Origin: Lagopus muta
Taxonomy: Eukaryota; Chordata; Aves; Galliformes; Phasianidae
NCBI RefSeq assembly: GCF_023343835.1
Contig: NC_064439.1
Coordinates: 40,789,508-40,853,507, forward strand
Reading direction: 5' to 3'
DNA length: 64,000 nt
Shown here: positions 26,901-62,857 of the stretch, piece after piece
Position numbering within the stretch: position 1 is the first letter of the stretch
How the letters are laid out: every line of letters begins with the position of its first letter
Translations under genes and position numbers: made by a program
The notes under the pieces: model-generated
Seen by the model: the letters and a program-made list of their open reading frames with translations, nothing else
Told to the model about the DNA's origin: nothing
Databases searched by the model: none

Positions 26901-29900
26901 GTTTTTGTCACCTTTAAGACTACAGTAATAGCAGCATTTACGTAAGCATTCATTATCTGAAACCTCAGAAAAAGACCACAAACCCAGAGAGAGAAAATCC
27001 CTTTTAGAGTGATTCACTGACAGGACATAATTTCCTAACTGCTTTCCCCACGAGGCAGGATCTCAGTGGTAACTCATCAATGTTGGTTTCAGCATCACCT
27101 ACCACCTTGCTTTCTCTTAGACTTTAGGATTTGGCTAGCAATTATTACAGCAGGAAAAAACCAACTGCTCTTAAAATCCAGCATTTCAGCTGCTTAAAGG
27201 CTACATTCAGGAGCCATCTTTTTTTTGTTGTTGCTGCATTAAACTGTGAGATAGTCACACGTGCAAATCAGGGTGGGATTTTCTTAACGCAGACTGAAAA
27301 GCACTGGAAATCTGCTAATACTAAAGCAGCCCAACACAGTTCATTATTCTCTCATTATTTGCTGACTCAAAAAGGACTTACATTGGACTTGCACTCATGC
27401 AACTTGTTTTAGATACAGATTCTGATCCACTGGATTTACCCACATGATTAAATTGCTGCCTCAATCCAAGTACTTCCCAGTTTTTAAGCTGTCTTCATAG
27501 TGAAGAGATGCTGACACCCAGGCTTAGCACTCAACTCAATTCAGTGTTTTTATAAAAGCCAGAACAGGAGTAGAGCACTCTGATTTATCTCTCTGAATAC
27601 TGAAACAGTGCATGGTACTAACAAATACACAAATACAGCAGCTATTACCTGTACTAACAGTGGCAATACTCACCTATCTAATGCTTGCCGAGCCAGTTGT
27701 TTCAGTTTTGCCTGCAGGCCTGCTTCTGAAGTTTCTGTAGCCTTCAATTCAAAACACATAAACAACACAAAAGCTACACACCCAAAGAAAGTCCAGATGT
27801 TAAGCTGTTTAATTACAGTTCCCACCTATTTTTTTTCCCCCCAATCCTCCCTTGAAATGAGCAGATATGTATGCGGTGGATTTTGTTTTTAAATCTCCAT
27901 ATAAAAAGGATACTAAGTGAATATTATTTTGATATTTTAGTAAACATTCATAGAATGAAAGTATTATTCAGCATTTTTCAGCATGGGAAATACTGAAATG
28001 CATGCACACAAAAAAACACTTAGAAAACCATTAAAATTGTGGACAGAAAAAACCAACAAATGTTATGTACACTATTGAAATAAAATGCATGCCAATTATT
28101 TTTTCCACAAAACGTCAAAAATAATCATGGTAACTTAGGAAAAGATACATTTGAATGTTCACTTTCATTGATGAAGCCTGCATGCAAGTTAAAACTCTTG
28201 TTTTTCCCCATGTGAAGCATAAAAAAGCACCAAAACCATTATCAGGACTGCTAACTTCTATTTCCAGTTGGAAAGTACGTTGTGACAGCTCACTCATATA
28301 ACTAGTTTATATTTCCTTCCTTACAGGTGAACAGGTAATCTGGAGGAAGCACAACATGAGCTGTGGCTTCTCTTGTCACAACCAATAGCAGGTTTCAGGT
28401 TTGAGCTTTGTATGTTGGCTGATTCTCCTGGGTTATCTATGTAAATGGAGGAAACAAAAGGCAAGCTACTTTCAGCCTAAGAAAGCAGAAATACCCTAAC
28501 AATTTTTAGTAAGTTACACTTAGGAGTTCCTTGTTGGAAAAGACTTTGAAAGATGCATGAAGGGAAGCAGTGGATATGATGCACCAGAATCAGACCTATC
28601 TGATGAGACACTGAGGAATAGACACACCTGCTCTCTTACTGCTTCAAAGGTAAGAAAGAAGCTGATCTCCCCATCTAATATAGAAAGCAGAAAGCAAGGC
28701 AGAAGTAGTGATTCAAGACAGAGTTCATTCCATCTTTCATCCTGGGGAGAAGAATTTCTGATCCCCTTGAGGGATAAAGCCTACAGTCATTTTAACAAAA
28801 CAATGTGTTGCCAATATTAAAAGAAACATTAGCTGTATCTGCACCTAACAAAAGATCAGGTAACAGCAACTGTTAATGAGAAATGGAAATTACTCTGGAA
28901 TTACATGTAAGCAGTACGTGCATGTACTAACACAACAGAAGGAGAAACAGCAGAGTCAAAAGCAGTGTGCTGATGCAGTGGTTTATGTAATAGACAAAAG
29001 CAGTTTTGATTAAACAGCTGAAGCAGAAAAACTAGAGCAGTTCTACTAGCTCTTGATCTGGTTACCTTGTATCACTAGGGTTTTTAAGTCTACCTAAAAC
29101 CGTTTAGAAGAATTCTGAGCAAAGGTTTTACTTTAGTATGTAGCAATATTACTATTTCCCTCCCAACAACCCATATATATATATACACTACAAAAAGGAA
29201 AGAGGAGAAAAAAGAAAAACAGACTTGGTGGAGTTACATTATGATGGTGAACTCTTCCTATAATGAGTTAGTTATGACAACTGGACTTCAGAGAAAAAAG
29301 CAGTACCTGTAATTATGTTTGTCATCATTCACATAAGGGCCAATTTTACTCTACCATTAACTGCAGCGTGAATTGGATTCACTCATATCTTTAATGTTAG
29401 CTACCAAGTAATCAAACAGTATTTTTACCAGTTCTGGCAGCAGGAGACTGTTTTGCTTTCAGAAAACACTACACAAAAAACTGCCAACAATTATTTCCTT
29501 TAATGTAGTCAGAAAATAAAATAGCTGACACATTAGAAAGCCATCTTCAATTCTAACAGTTTTTGATTTCTCTTTTAATATTGCATTCATTCTAGCGTAA
29601 AAGTTAACAGGACAAAATATTCAGCATATTTGTATCTCTTAGTATAATCTGGCTCAGTGAAAACACACAGATGACCAGCCCCCATGAATTTACAGCATTA
29701 AATAATGTAACAACTGGAAGAAACATTACAGAAACAACTAATGGAAAAAAAACATTCAAGAACAGCTTTTAGAGATACAGGTACTCCATTTTTAAGCCAG
29801 CCTTCAGGAGTCAATTGTTTGTGTAAGTGGAAGAATTCCTTACCATCACGTAATTCCACCAAGTTAACTTGTAGCTTAACATACTGTTTTCAAACAGAGC

Positions 29901-31579
29901 TCCACTGCTTCCGTGTACAACTCTATAGCTTCTTCTGCATTGCCTTTGTCATCTTCATCAAAAGCCTGTGTAACTAGGAAGTGAGCACGCTCCAAGTCCA
30001 GCTGCTGTTTTGACTTCAGAGGGTCTGTGTTCTGAGACTGAACTAAAAGAAAAATGAAAGCGTTCAGCTTTCTACAGCAGCAGACATGCAAAAGCATCCT
30101 CCCCATAGCACTGAAACACTAGTAGTTCTATCAGATGAGAAATGTCTACTCTATGGCTGCAAGCAGAAAGTTGGCAAACTTTGCTGAAGACGTCTTTACA
30201 AGGAAAAAGAAACAAACACTCCTCCCCCAAGGCTGAGACATGCCCTCAGGTTATGTCACATGTCAAGTAACGTACATAAGATCTCTTGCATATTATGCAG
30301 GTGTGGTTCCTAACAATATTTAAAGTGGAAGAATATGCACACCCAAGTCCTTAGGAAATAAGTCTTCTGCACTGCGCTACATTTCTGATTCACTAAGGAG
30401 TTCTAAACAGACTCACAAAATATAAGAAACATGAGAAGCAGAGCAAACATCACAGATACATATTTCACGGCACTGTTCTACTGAATTTATGCAGAGGTTT
30501 GATTAGAAAGCTCCTCACCCACCTGCTGAATGGAGAGCTTGAACTCTTTCCAAATACTCATTTATTTTTTCTTGAATATTTTCCAAGCTTGACCCTGCCA
30601 TGCCAGCATAAATCAAGGCTTGCGCGGCTTCCTGCAGGGAAAGGAATTTGAAACAAAAGTTAATGGTTGGTGACTGGAAAATTACTTTCCATGAACAGAA
30701 AGCTACAGCAACGAGTCTGCACGAAAGCTGGCTCCTACACCCACATCAAGGTTCAGTGGTACAGGGAGAATCTGCCAGAGAGAAGAAGTCACAAATGAAA
30801 TCCAATTTCCTAAGTTCAATTTCACACAGAACAACCTACAAAACTGCAGAACCTCAGAAGATTTATAATCACAGAACGGCCAGGGTTGGAAGGGACCTCG
30901 AGGATCATGAAGCTCCAACCCTCCCCACCACAGGCAGGGCCACCAACCTCCGCATTTTGTACTAGACAAAGCTGCCCATGGCCCCATCCAACCTGGTCTT
31001 GAACACCTCCAGGGTAGAGGCATAAGGCCGCATCTTAGGTCAGTGTGTGCAGTCACACACACAACAACAGAAATTTTAAATGACCTTATTCAGTCATGCA
31101 CTGAAATCAGCTAAGTAAAACTCTGGACAAACTTTTATTTTTAAAGGTACAAATTTGTGGTTGAGGAAGAAAATAAAAACCTTTTAAAAAAAAAATAATC
31201 AACAGATCACTCACAAATTATTTGCACTCAATCTGATAATAATGAGAAGAAAACCAGCATAAAAAACCTTTAAAAAACAAATTCATAGAATTACGGAGTT
31301 TTGTATGAATAACAGGGATAGAAAAAGTGATCAGATCTTGAATTCTACAGCATTAAGATTTCCCAGCTCCTCAGATTTTTGTCTTTAAATGTTTCTATGT
31401 GCAGAAAACACTGGATATTGATTGAAGTCCATTTCCAGGAGGGAGCATAAGAAGGTCTCCAGCTCAGAAGCACAGTGTGTTACCCACATGAAGACTTTTT
31501 CTATAATGCACAAATCTATTAGGAAAAAAAATGCCCTCAGTTGCAATCAGCTGTCTATCCACTCACTAAATTTATTTAA

Positions 31580-56308: not shown

Positions 56309-56309
<1 letters not shown>
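54306..56309. other. Intergenic, nothing recognised
   Basis: AT-rich sequence. I searched it for an upstream exon of the orphan - strand exon and found none with good splice sites. Confidence 0.5.
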
Positions 56310-56352
<43 letters not shown>

Positions 56353-56472
56353 TATATTATATATATATTATATATATTATTATTATATATATATATTATA
56401 TATTATTATTATATATATATTATATATATAATAATATATATATAAATATATATATTATTATATATATATTAT

Positions 56473-56503
<31 letters not shown>

Positions 56504-59075: not shown

Positions 59076-60362
59076 TTTTGAATTTCAGTGAACTGGGAGG
59101 GTGAAGTGCTTGTTTTCTCTTGCTGTCTGTTTGCTTTTACATCCCTTCACATACATTTCCCTTTCTGCTACTAATAAGTCTAGGCCATATTCAAGCCAGC
59201 ATAATATTAGGCATTAAGCAGTGTCAGAGGCACAGATGCTTGGGAAATTTCTGTGCAAGTCTCAGCTCCAAAACTGAATTCTAAATAAATTATGCTCATC
59301 AGAATTCCAGAAGCCCTGAAATAATATTTTATTTATTTGTTTATTTAAAAAGTATCAGTGTAGATTCTACTGAAATTGTACTCTGTTTTGAACCCAAGCC
59401 TGGAATATAAGTGGGCTAACCTACCTCTTTGTTTTGATCTGAGTGTCTGCCAGGATGAACACGTTCAAACAATTAACTGATACAGAGCAACATTTGGCTC
59501 TTTCCACACTTCTGGTAGTTTAACAATGCTTTGTATAAAATTTTGGCTGTACGGAGCTGGTAGAAGATAAAGTTCAATAGCCATACATCTTCCAGACCAA
59601 TACACCTCCATCAATAGCTGTGTATTAAGTACGAAATTCTCAGGGTAACCGCAATGGAATTTTTTCAGTTACTCTGTGTTGAGCATATCTGAGTTATGTC
59701 AGTTGGCAGGCAGAATGTAATGCCTCTTCCCAGAAAGAAAATCTGGGGATTAGGTTGGGTATTATATGAACTTGTCAGCTCAGTAGCATTCAAAAAATAT
59801 AAGCAATTGCTAGCTATCATTAAAAAAGGAGTAGGGAATGAAGCAAAGACAATGATTATGACCTGGCTTACCACTTATTCTTAAAACTATTTACTGTATT
59901 TGTGTTCTATAAAATATTTAGTGTATTTATGTTCTACAACTGAAAGTTTTTCAAAACTGTATCGTTCTTCACTGTTTAGTGTGCTCAAGCTTGATGTAGC
60001 TTAATTTTGTACTTTGTTGTTGAGATTATCATTCCCATTTCCCCTAGCATTGAGTTGTAGCTCTTTCGTATGGTATCTTCATTACTGACTAACTAGCGTA
60101 TTTAACTTGTAAATAATTGCTTGTTCTTATCCATGTCTATTTTATGTAGAGACACGCACCAGAAGTCAGGCATTAACAGTTCTATGTTCAAAATGTGTAT
60201 GTTAAGCATAAGGAAAGAAACTTGGAATTTAAAATGCTACTTTAAACTGTATAGAACTAGAAAGCCTCTGTGATGTTAATAAAATGCACACAAAGCCGCT
60301 TCACTCACAGCTATCAAACTCCTGAGAAATTATGCTCTGTATTTCTTACTTTGTTTTTCTAG
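59076..60362. other. Upstream region of the collagen VI gene
   Basis: No CpG island and no exon recognised. The coding exon at 60363 starts behind a strong acceptor (TTTGTTTTTCTAG), so a non-coding first exon and promoter should lie somewhere upstream; I cannot place them. Confidence 0.5.
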
Positions 60363-60375
60363 GGAGATTTTCAAA

Positions 60376-60448
60376 ATGGATGATTGGAAATCACTTCTTG
60401 TACTTCTTTTTGTATCCACCTTTGGCACTCTAGATGCACAACAGACTG
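60376..60448 (+). CDS. COL6A4: Collagen VI long chain exon with signal peptide
   Basis: The exon begins at 60363 after TTTTTCTAG; ATG is at 60376. It ends CAGACTG|GTAATA at 60448. The same CTGGTAATA is repeated, giving a second in-phase donor 9 nt on (60457). Leaves in phase 1. Confidence 0.85.
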
Positions 60449-62857
60449 GTAATACTGGTAATACATTAAAGAAATATCTCATTTTCAAACTAATAGTTTT
60501 TCTTTTCCTACATGTATTCAGTGCTGGTGAGAGACAATGAATTTGTGACAGTTTAATTTTTGTTTAAGTAGTGTATGGGATCCGTTGAGTCAGGGCTTGA
60601 AGCACTGATGGATCACCTGAGGCAAGCACTGAGTCAGCCATGGAGCACAGGTGAAGGCGATTCAGCTGTGGGACCAGAAGGGTTGAAGCCTGGCTGCACC
60701 TCTCTTAGACCCCATTTAAGGGCTGACTGCCACATGGGAAGGATCTCTTTCTGGAGATCCCTCCTCTGTGGAGTCTTTCCTGCAAACTTAGATCTTTGGG
60801 AACAGGTTTTCCTAAAGATAGTAAAATGAAGTGCAACAGTTTATTACAATTCATTTTTGATTGTGTGTGATGAGGTTATGTATTTTCAGAAGTAAGGAAG
60901 AAGTTTTATGGTGGAGATTGCGTTGTGTCCTAGCTAGAAACCTTGCAGCCCAGATACGTATTTGCATTCGTGCAATTAGCAAAATTATTATTAGCATTAT
61001 TATCTTAAATCTTCCAGAATAACTGACTACTGCTTGAGGAAGCATACCATTCAGTTGCTGAACATCTTCCTAGTGTATCTTGGTTTAAAGAAATTGTTAC
61101 AACTTCATTCGTGCTCTGAAAAGCATGGAAATACATGAGTTCCGTATTTCCTACAAGTAGATCTGTTTAGTCCTCTTTAAGTCAGTGTGACTTGTTAGTA
61201 ATGCATGCTTGCAGTCTGGAGTTCAAAGTGTATAAGTAATTTTTCCTTGTAGCTCACTTGACAGCAAGTCTGTGCATTCTTGTTATTGTGGTTCATACGC
61301 AGAAAAGAGTACAGCAATTACCATATGCATTCTCTGCTTATGACTTCATGTGTGCAAGCTGTGTATGGAAGTCGTGTTGGTGTGAATTTCAGCATCTCTT
61401 CTTTGCTTAACAATGGTATGGAAATACGTGGCATCAAACCCCCAGTGTGAAGAACAAGGGGAAAAAAAGAAGCTTAATATACCATGCACTTGGTATATTA
61501 AGCTTCATTCTTGCTCAGCCTCTACTATAACAAGGATGGTATCTCACAGAAGATAGAGAAATTGCATTACATGGGAGGAGGCACCAAAACTGGATGTATC
61601 CTTTAGTTTATGTTAGAGAATCACTTCATTGAAAGTGCTAGCAGCAAAATAAAGAAATAAATAAAGAGGTTCTTCAAACTGCTGCTCTAAAATGGGCAAG
61701 CTGAAGATAATACTCAAAACTCAGCCACAGCAGCCAAGGATGCAGGCATTGTGCTATATGCTATAGGCATTAAAGATTTTGCTCTGCCTGAACTTCAAGA
61801 AATAGTGAGTGAGCCATCAGATAGGCATGTCTATAAAGTAAAAGATTTTGTTGCTTGGTAGTGATGCTCTCACAATTTTCTATAAAAGTTTTGTGGAAGA
61901 GGTAACTGGACTGGTTGCACAGTTTGCCCATGATATGTCCTGAAAGAGCTATTTCTCCTCAGCTTTGATGCTTTTTCTGTTTGTAGATAAATTATATAAT
62001 TGCAGTGTGTTGCCAAAGTATAGCTTTCTTCCTCTTTCATATGTTGTCAATAATATTAACTCTTAAGTGTTGCCAATTTTGAGTAGAAATCTACATTTAT
62101 AATATTCAAAATAATGGGAGTGGGAGAAGGTGAGAGGAGACAAGGCAGAAACATACAACAATTATGATTTTTCATGATGAATAAAATGTACTTTCTGTTA
62201 TCCCTTATTCATGAACGATTTTAGAAAAGAGATGATAGTTTGTTTTTCTATGTCATCTTTCTCGAGCAGCTTGCATTAATGCCACGATGGCAGATGTTGT
62301 CTTTATAGTGGATACTTCAACAAGTATTACCCAGGAGAACTTTCAGAAAGTGAAGAACTTCCTTTCCTCCTTGGTCTCAAGTTTTGACATTGGCCTTGAT
62401 GCGGTCCGAGTTGGACTGGTCCAATACAGTGACAAAGCTTACCAAGTATTCTTACTGAATCAGTATTTATTGAAAAATGATGTTTTGGAGCAGATTGGGA
62501 ATTTGCCGTACAGAGGTGGAGAAACATACACAGGGAGAGCTCTGGATTTCGTCAGCACAAAGTATTTCATGGAATCTGCTGGTAGTAGAGCAAAGGGTTA
62601 TGTCCCTCAGTTAGCCATTCTTATCACCAGTGGAGAATCCAGGGATGAAGTAGAACAGCCTGCCAAGAAACTGAGATACAGAGGCATTTCCATTTACGTT
62701 GTTGGAATTGGTATCCAGAATACAACTGAGCTTCAGCAAATAGCCAGCAAACCCTTCCATAAATACCTGTATAGCATTGGTAGTTTCGATGACCTTCCAG
62801 ATCTCTCCACAAGAGTTTTGCAAAACTTCTGCACTGCAATTGAAAACCAGATACAAG
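60376..62857 (+). CDS. COL6A4: Collagen VI long chain (alpha4/5/6 type, probably COL6A4), 5' two coding exons; continues past the window
   Basis: Exon 60376-60448 (ATG) and exon 62270-62857 join in phase 1 to about 220 residues. Residues 1-21 form a signal peptide (MDDWKSLLVLLFVSTFGTLDA). Residues 33-215 are a von Willebrand A domain: ADVVFIVDTSTS with the DxSxS MIDAS motif at 39-43, FDIGLDAVRVGLVQYSD, GGETYTGRALDFV, and IASKPFHKYLYSI near the end. The third MIDAS position is Ser145 (ITSGES) instead of the usual Asp. Sequons are NAT at 28 and NTT near 180. A signal peptide exon followed by one-exon A domains is the pattern of long collagen VI chains, which carry seven or more N-terminal A domains before a short triple helix. 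The symbol rests on adjacency to CAPN7 (human COL6A4P1 is beside CAPN7); alpha5 or alpha6 cannot be excluded. Confidence 0.85.
60571..60830 (+). repeat. LTR-like interspersed repeat, second copy
   Basis: Same family as 34914-35237, in the same orientation. The first 150 bp are closely similar (GTTGAGTCAGGGCTTGAAGC, CAGCCATGGAGCACAGGTGA, TTAAGGGCTGACTGCCACA); the right part is diverged and its end is uncertain. Confidence 0.7.
61469..61506. repeat. Perfect inverted repeat (16-bp arms, 6-nt loop)
   Basis: GAAGCTTAATATACCA at 61469-61484 and its exact reverse complement at 61491-61506, loop tgcact. The right arm runs directly into the dead A-domain exon. No T run follows, so it is not a terminator; it looks like a fold-back junction. 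Confidence 0.95.
61502..61935 (+). pseudogene. Dead von Willebrand A-domain exon (second half) inside the collagen VI intron
   Basis: One frame reads, in A-domain order, FLLSLYYNKDGISQKIEKL, YMGGGTKTG, FMLENHFIESASSKIKK, NGQAEDNTQ, AAKDAGIVLYAIGIKDFAL, PELQEIVSEPSDRHVYKVKD. These correspond to the GG-T-TG loop, the ..LLITDGQ-D.. strand and the AIGI..ELQEI..HVY.V.DF end of the fold. In-frame stops at 61604-61606, 61658-61660, 61688-61690 and 61859-61861, and no acceptor or MIDAS first half, show it is dead. The start abuts the hairpin, so the first half was probably lost by rearrangement. It is not a close copy of the living A domain at 62270-62857. Confidence 0.8.
62270..62857 (+). CDS. COL6A4: Collagen VI long chain exon, first von Willebrand A domain
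   Basis: Acceptor CTCGAGCAG at 62261-62269, donor ACAAG|GTAAGA after 62857. It is 588 nt and encodes one whole A domain, as usual for these genes. The open frame continuing past 62857 is intronic. Confidence 0.92.

Follow-up and report, generated by a model that had tools for sequence, protein, structure and literature searches.

The long chains of collagen VI are built as a series of A domains, ten of which are described for alpha-3 and seven for alpha-4 to alpha-6 in the available text of PMC3919171. An alpha-3 isoform lacking N7-N10 (Dziadek 2002) and the restoration of assembly by alpha-3 lacking N10-N7 (Lamande 1998) are both cited in the accessible part of PMC10049728, which speaks for the distal beads being dispensable. 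At the alpha-4 locus, the accessible text of PMC6934817 describes that human COL6A4 was broken as a whole gene by a chromosome inversion. In a stretch of 64,000 nucleotides of Lagopus muta DNA (hereafter the window, 40789508-40853507 of contig C10), a decayed A-domain stretch is located in the intron of about 1.8 kb that follows the signal-peptide exon and precedes the first live A-domain exon (exon B) of a COL6A4-type gene, on the same strand. This relic is quite probably the original first A-domain exon of the alpha-4(VI) chain, dead in place.

The relic carries its disabling lesions in a host gene that is otherwise open. Seven live A exons, all of them open, produce matches at 40851800, 40853890, 40854883, 40856539, 40857882, 40858834 and 40860766 of C10, and they are accompanied by two C-terminal A exons (C1 and C2) on the same strand and by a divergent N1 domain with an open frame from about 40863876, which was located with provisional N1 sequences. 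Fifteen Gly-X-Y segments of at least four triplets were also found, 13 of them preceded by AG and 13 followed by GT. The gene thus looks otherwise alive in the sense of being open and spliceable, and the possibility of a whole-gene pseudogene was rejected, given that the A exons are open and have splice sites, that N1 lies in an open frame and that most Gly-X-Y segments are flanked by AG and GT. In the alpha-3 and alpha-4 arrays 16 live A exons were examined, and in every one the best-scoring acceptor and donor have phase 1-1; as the signal-peptide exon also ends in phase 1, dropping one A exon keeps the reading frame. Regarding the number of domains, this alpha-4 chain seems to carry eight N-terminal A domains that are live, seven from the exons above and one from N1 (C10:40851800-40866300; loci L009 and L029), one more than the printed count of seven for alpha-4 to alpha-6. 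The original prediction had adopted that printed count, which does not appear to hold for this alpha-4, where the relic would be the ninth.

Two coding segments were observed near the left end of the window, one matching SH3BP5 (248-535, + strand, E 1.7e-10) and another one encoding an MIT domain (29879-30118, - strand, E 4.9e-10), which we take to be CAPN7-like, CAPN7 being an MIT protein. Human COL6A4P1 is situated near SH3BP5 and CAPN7, which fits the COL6A4 identity of the host gene. At the genome level, at least 93 VWA places were listed, and among these 93 just one further long array has each of its A domains in a single exon; it is alpha-3-like and lies on C11. An array of A exons resembling alpha-5 or alpha-6 does not appear among the 93 places listed, an absence that is only suggested.

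Table 1. Window coordinates of the relic, its lesions and the exons that flank it.
Feature	Position	Strand	Basis
Relic of A-domain exon covering roughly the final two-thirds of the domain (may include 61491-61501)	61502..61941	+	VWA profiles and alignments
In-frame stops at 61499, 61604, 61658 and 61688	61499..61690	+	Main-frame reading
One-base frameshift; the old frame enters TAG at 61859	61855..61861	+	Frame reading
GAAAGAG at the expected donor of a phase-1 exon; putative former donor	61942..61948	+	Position and phase
Inverted repeat, arms 61463-61484 and 61491-61512, 20/22 complementary, perfect core of 16, loop of 6	61463..61512		Sequence
Signal-peptide exon, ATG at 60376, MDDWKSLLVLLFVSTFGTLDAQQT..., phase-1 end before GTAATAC	60363..60448	+	Open frame; start at 60363 proposed from the preceding AG
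Exon B, the first live one for an A domain, of phase 1-1; its acceptor may instead lie three bases upstream, at 62267	62270..62857	+	Open frame, splice sites

The decayed A-domain stretch is real. When its translation was run against Pfam with X at the stops and the frames joined across the frameshift, the relic matched VWA (PF00092) over positions 60-167 of the 174 in the profile with 64.7 bits (E 1.6e-17), above the gathering score of 23.8 bits, the first third of the domain being absent. It was also recovered unaided when the whole genome (1.03 Gb, 165 contigs) was searched for VWA in six frames, at C10:40851015-40851359, with 66.6 bits over profile positions 53-166 and three stops inside. 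A profile built from 16 alpha-3 and alpha-4 N domains of the same genome gave 73.9 bits (i-E 3.5e-22, window 61505-61855) and, across a six-frame reading of the window, it matches only the live exon besides the relic. The relic therefore agrees with a profile of the collagen VI N type (73.9 bits), other extracellular-matrix A exons scoring nearly as high. The relic was shuffled 200 times and compared with 51 A-domain sequences; no shuffle scored above 65 with any of them, while the real sequence reached 204 with a provisional mouse domain sequence and 188 with bird alpha-3 N10. These shuffle scores, together with the N-domain profile match, rule out a chance reading frame as the origin of the relic.

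At the edges, A-domain alignments of the relic start at 61502-61508 and profile matches end at 61852-61855, that is, before the frameshift; the last helix, past the frameshift, is supported by pairwise alignments that cross it, for instance to exon B up to relic residue 130. A first-third profile, used to look for the part of the domain that is missing, gave nothing above 1 bit in 60301-62268 or in the whole window on both strands, with the exception of the live exon. The original prediction had read the second half of an A domain at 61502..61935 and had considered the lack of an A-domain profile match as evidence against it; both Pfam VWA and the collagen VI profile recognize the stretch, which amounts to about the last two-thirds of a domain, and the left edge of 61502 is right, whereas the right edge may reach 61941. 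The four in-frame stops counted there within 61502-61935 correspond to those at 61604, 61658, 61688 and 61859, and the frameshift near 61858 was found as well.

The codons at 61508 and 61860 are 352 nt apart and thus one base out of register, which reveals this frameshift; beyond it the second frame is open to 61940. An exon ending at 61941 would be phase 1, like the live A exons, its 5' end having been lost. Live alpha-4 donors are GTAAGAA, GTAAGAG and the like, whereas the putative donor of the relic has GA in place of GT. On the 5' side, seven AG sites at 61380-61512 show no more than 10 pyrimidines in 17 positions each; among the live A exons, the top acceptor candidate has 14-16 pyrimidines in 13 of 16 and 10-12 in the other three. 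The A-domain alignment of the relic begins inside the right arm of the inverted repeat, which is unique in the window (arms of at least 14, loop of at most 20) outside the TA microsatellite at 56309-56499, a long TA-rich tract with many nested inverted repeats. Polymerase template switching leaves reverse-complement copies, and the most suitable reading of the left arm is that exon sequence was copied in this way. The inverted repeat may mark the event that killed the exon or may postdate it. Between the signal-peptide exon and the relic, a G+C-richer segment at 60570-60800 resembles by eye an inserted repeat.

As to which A domain the relic derives from, the best match among 35 A domains of the same genome is N10 of alpha-3 (76.3 bits, 31% identity), likewise the first A domain of its chain, followed in a near-tie by an exon with 73.9 bits that we take to be collagen XXII-like, and then by exon B with 70.5 bits. 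At the DNA level the loci of all 93 listed VWA places were compared with the relic, and N10 again came first (32 bp, 87.5%, E 4.6e-5); no close copy of the relic was found among these places. When the 35 domains were joined by 16 provisional sequences from mouse and human, the best of the 51 was the first A domain of mouse alpha-4 (score 204, 38% over 112 residues, with N10 at 188), a sequence that was set down after the relic had been read. The provisional sequences have some control: that of human N10 is 72% identical to bird N10, those of N1 match stretches not previously read, and those of mouse domains B-F have live exons 1-5 as their best matches in that order. Four of the six provisional alpha-6 domains (2, 3, 4 and 6) find the predicted exon as best match; domains 1 and 5 do not.

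Phylogenetic trees do not settle the relic among collagen VI domains. In the tree built without the provisional rows its neighbours are A exons from outside collagen VI, in a group of seven rows (92/93) that includes L024, and with the provisional rows it falls in a six-row group (90/77) with exons that are presumably collagen XXI/XXII-like and matrilin-like. Constraining the relic to provisional mouse domain A, alpha-3 N10 or exon B was neither rejected nor favoured (p-AU 0.218, 0.184 and 0.139, respectively). Part of a domain, decayed and on a long branch, is ill suited to tree building, so the argument rests on place and phase. Relatives of exon B were looked for in the scanned genome-contig and viral-contig collections, which hold no other vertebrate genomes, and none was found.

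The extent of decay was estimated by mutating 13 live exon halves in silico and scoring them with leave-one-out profiles. Exons 2, 5 and 6 of alpha-4 were excluded from this set, their own halves scoring low (60.8, 74.5 and 59.9 bits, respectively), and the simulation, in which the start sequences stand in for the ancestor, consists of substitutions only. The joint chance of exactly three stops and 66-84 bits is highest at 0.12-0.18 substitutions per site: of 1950 runs, 77 matched at 0.12, 79 at 0.15 and 73 at 0.18, with 3 at 0.04 and 4 at 0.30. With all sixteen exon halves, going from 0.1 to 0.2 substitutions per site raised the share of runs with at least three stops from 8% to 27% and lowered the share that kept at least 74 bits from 54% to 6%. 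The neutral rate of birds is near 2e-9 per site per year, at which a decay of about 0.15 substitutions per site would correspond to some 75 million years, with an approximate range of 30-125 million. Since a decay of 0.12-0.18 is small in comparison with an identity of about one-third to any living exon, the relic would have been under constraint for most of its history, and its sequence was very likely once used by an ancestor.

Other origins have to be weighed against the death of an exon in its original place. A truncated copy of an A exon, from this gene or from alpha-3, might have landed in the first intron without ever becoming functional, so that the chain never had the domain; a partial copy would explain why the relic has neither the first third nor an acceptor. 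However, at the estimated level of decay such a copy is expected to be still nearly 85% identical to its source, while the best resemblance in DNA within the loci of all 93 listed VWA places is that of 32 bp and proteins aligned at length reach an identity of only about one-third. Together with the 3' end, which retains the position and phase of a donor, these observations make a failed duplicate unlikely, and a recent duplicate of a living exon was rejected on the confrontation of the 0.12-0.18 decay with the lack of a close source among the 93 places. An insertion from an unrelated A-domain gene of the collagen XXI/XXII or matrilin type, either as a retrocopy or as a translocated piece, would account for the trees, in which the relic joins non-collagen-VI exons, and for the near-tie of the collagen XXII-like exon with N10. 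Nevertheless, the relic shares orientation and phase with the exons of the host gene, and the signs of a processed copy to which the original prediction had pointed as contrary evidence were not seen: no poly(A) follows the relic, no direct repeat of at least 12 nt brackets it and no close source exists among the 93 listed VWA places. The retrocopy was rejected on these grounds, and a foreign origin in general is very improbable.

It could also be considered that the relic is still used, as a non-coding or regulatory remnant or as a rarely spliced exon, but beyond the fact that it stays recognizable nothing was found in favour of this idea. The poor acceptors on its 5' side, with at most 10 of 17 pyrimidines at the seven AG sites, the GA of the putative donor, and the stops and frameshift all oppose it, so that continued use is extremely unlikely. 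The interpretation that an ancestral chain had an additional N-terminal A domain that was lost by exon death, as put forward in the original prediction, is thus probably right. Its identification of the relic as a former A-domain exon is sustained by a place, orientation and splice phase that suit the gene and by stops and a frameshift in an otherwise open gene, and it is in the count of domains that it has to be amended.

Death of the first A exon in place could have occurred through a simple series of steps. A deletion at the 5' end, accompanied by fold-back copying from which the inverted repeat arose, may have made the exon unspliceable, either by itself or together with the loss of the donor, or the loss of the donor may have sufficed. 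The signal-peptide exon would then have been spliced directly to exon B with the frame kept, the chain minus its outermost bead would still have assembled, and the unspliced exon would have been free to drift. A half-decayed exon in the slot of the first bead would represent a step of chain shortening whose lesions are still legible and open to comparison, a small and readable case of a modular matrix protein shortened by the death of one module. No mention of a dead A exon in COL6A4 was found in the available portions of the collagen VI literature, including PMC6934817, PMC4777857, PMC3919171, PMC4121998 and PMC10049728, although it may nevertheless have been published.

A broader reading, to which slightly less than an even chance is given, is that nine A domains, A-H and N1, stood at the N-terminal side in the ancestor of alpha-4, alpha-5 and alpha-6 and that the present counts reflect different survivors. 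With the same tentative standing, and with its mouse and human parts taken from provisional sequences, alpha-4 in this bird would have kept eight of them, B-H and N1, domain A persisting as the relic, whereas mouse alpha-4 would have kept seven (A-F and N1) and human alpha-6 another seven (C-H and N1). In the tree, provisional alpha-6 domain 1 joins exon C and mouse C (99/98), and domain 5 corresponds to exon G by order alone. If this were true, the "seven" of alpha-4 and the "seven" of alpha-6 would be different sets, the same domain count in two chains would mask different histories, and beads would have been shed repeatedly, every A exon being frame-neutral.

Among known systems, the first A domain of mouse alpha-4 (N7) occupies the same slot, between the signal peptide and domain B, and its provisional sequence is the one that the relic most resembles among the 51 compared. 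In comparison with mouse N7 the relic is dead and truncated, and their orthology rests on place and on that provisional sequence. N10 of alpha-3(VI), the best living match in the genome, is also first in its chain and is encoded by a phase 1-1 exon, but it is alive, belongs to another gene and shares 31% identity with the relic. Symmetric A exons can likewise be skipped in alpha-3, according to the accessible part of PMC10049728; those alternatively spliced exons are intact and optional, whereas the relic is dead. Human COL6A4 pseudogenes, in the available text of PMC6934817, likewise represent a loss at the alpha-4 locus, with the difference that in Lagopus muta a single exon died and the gene continues.
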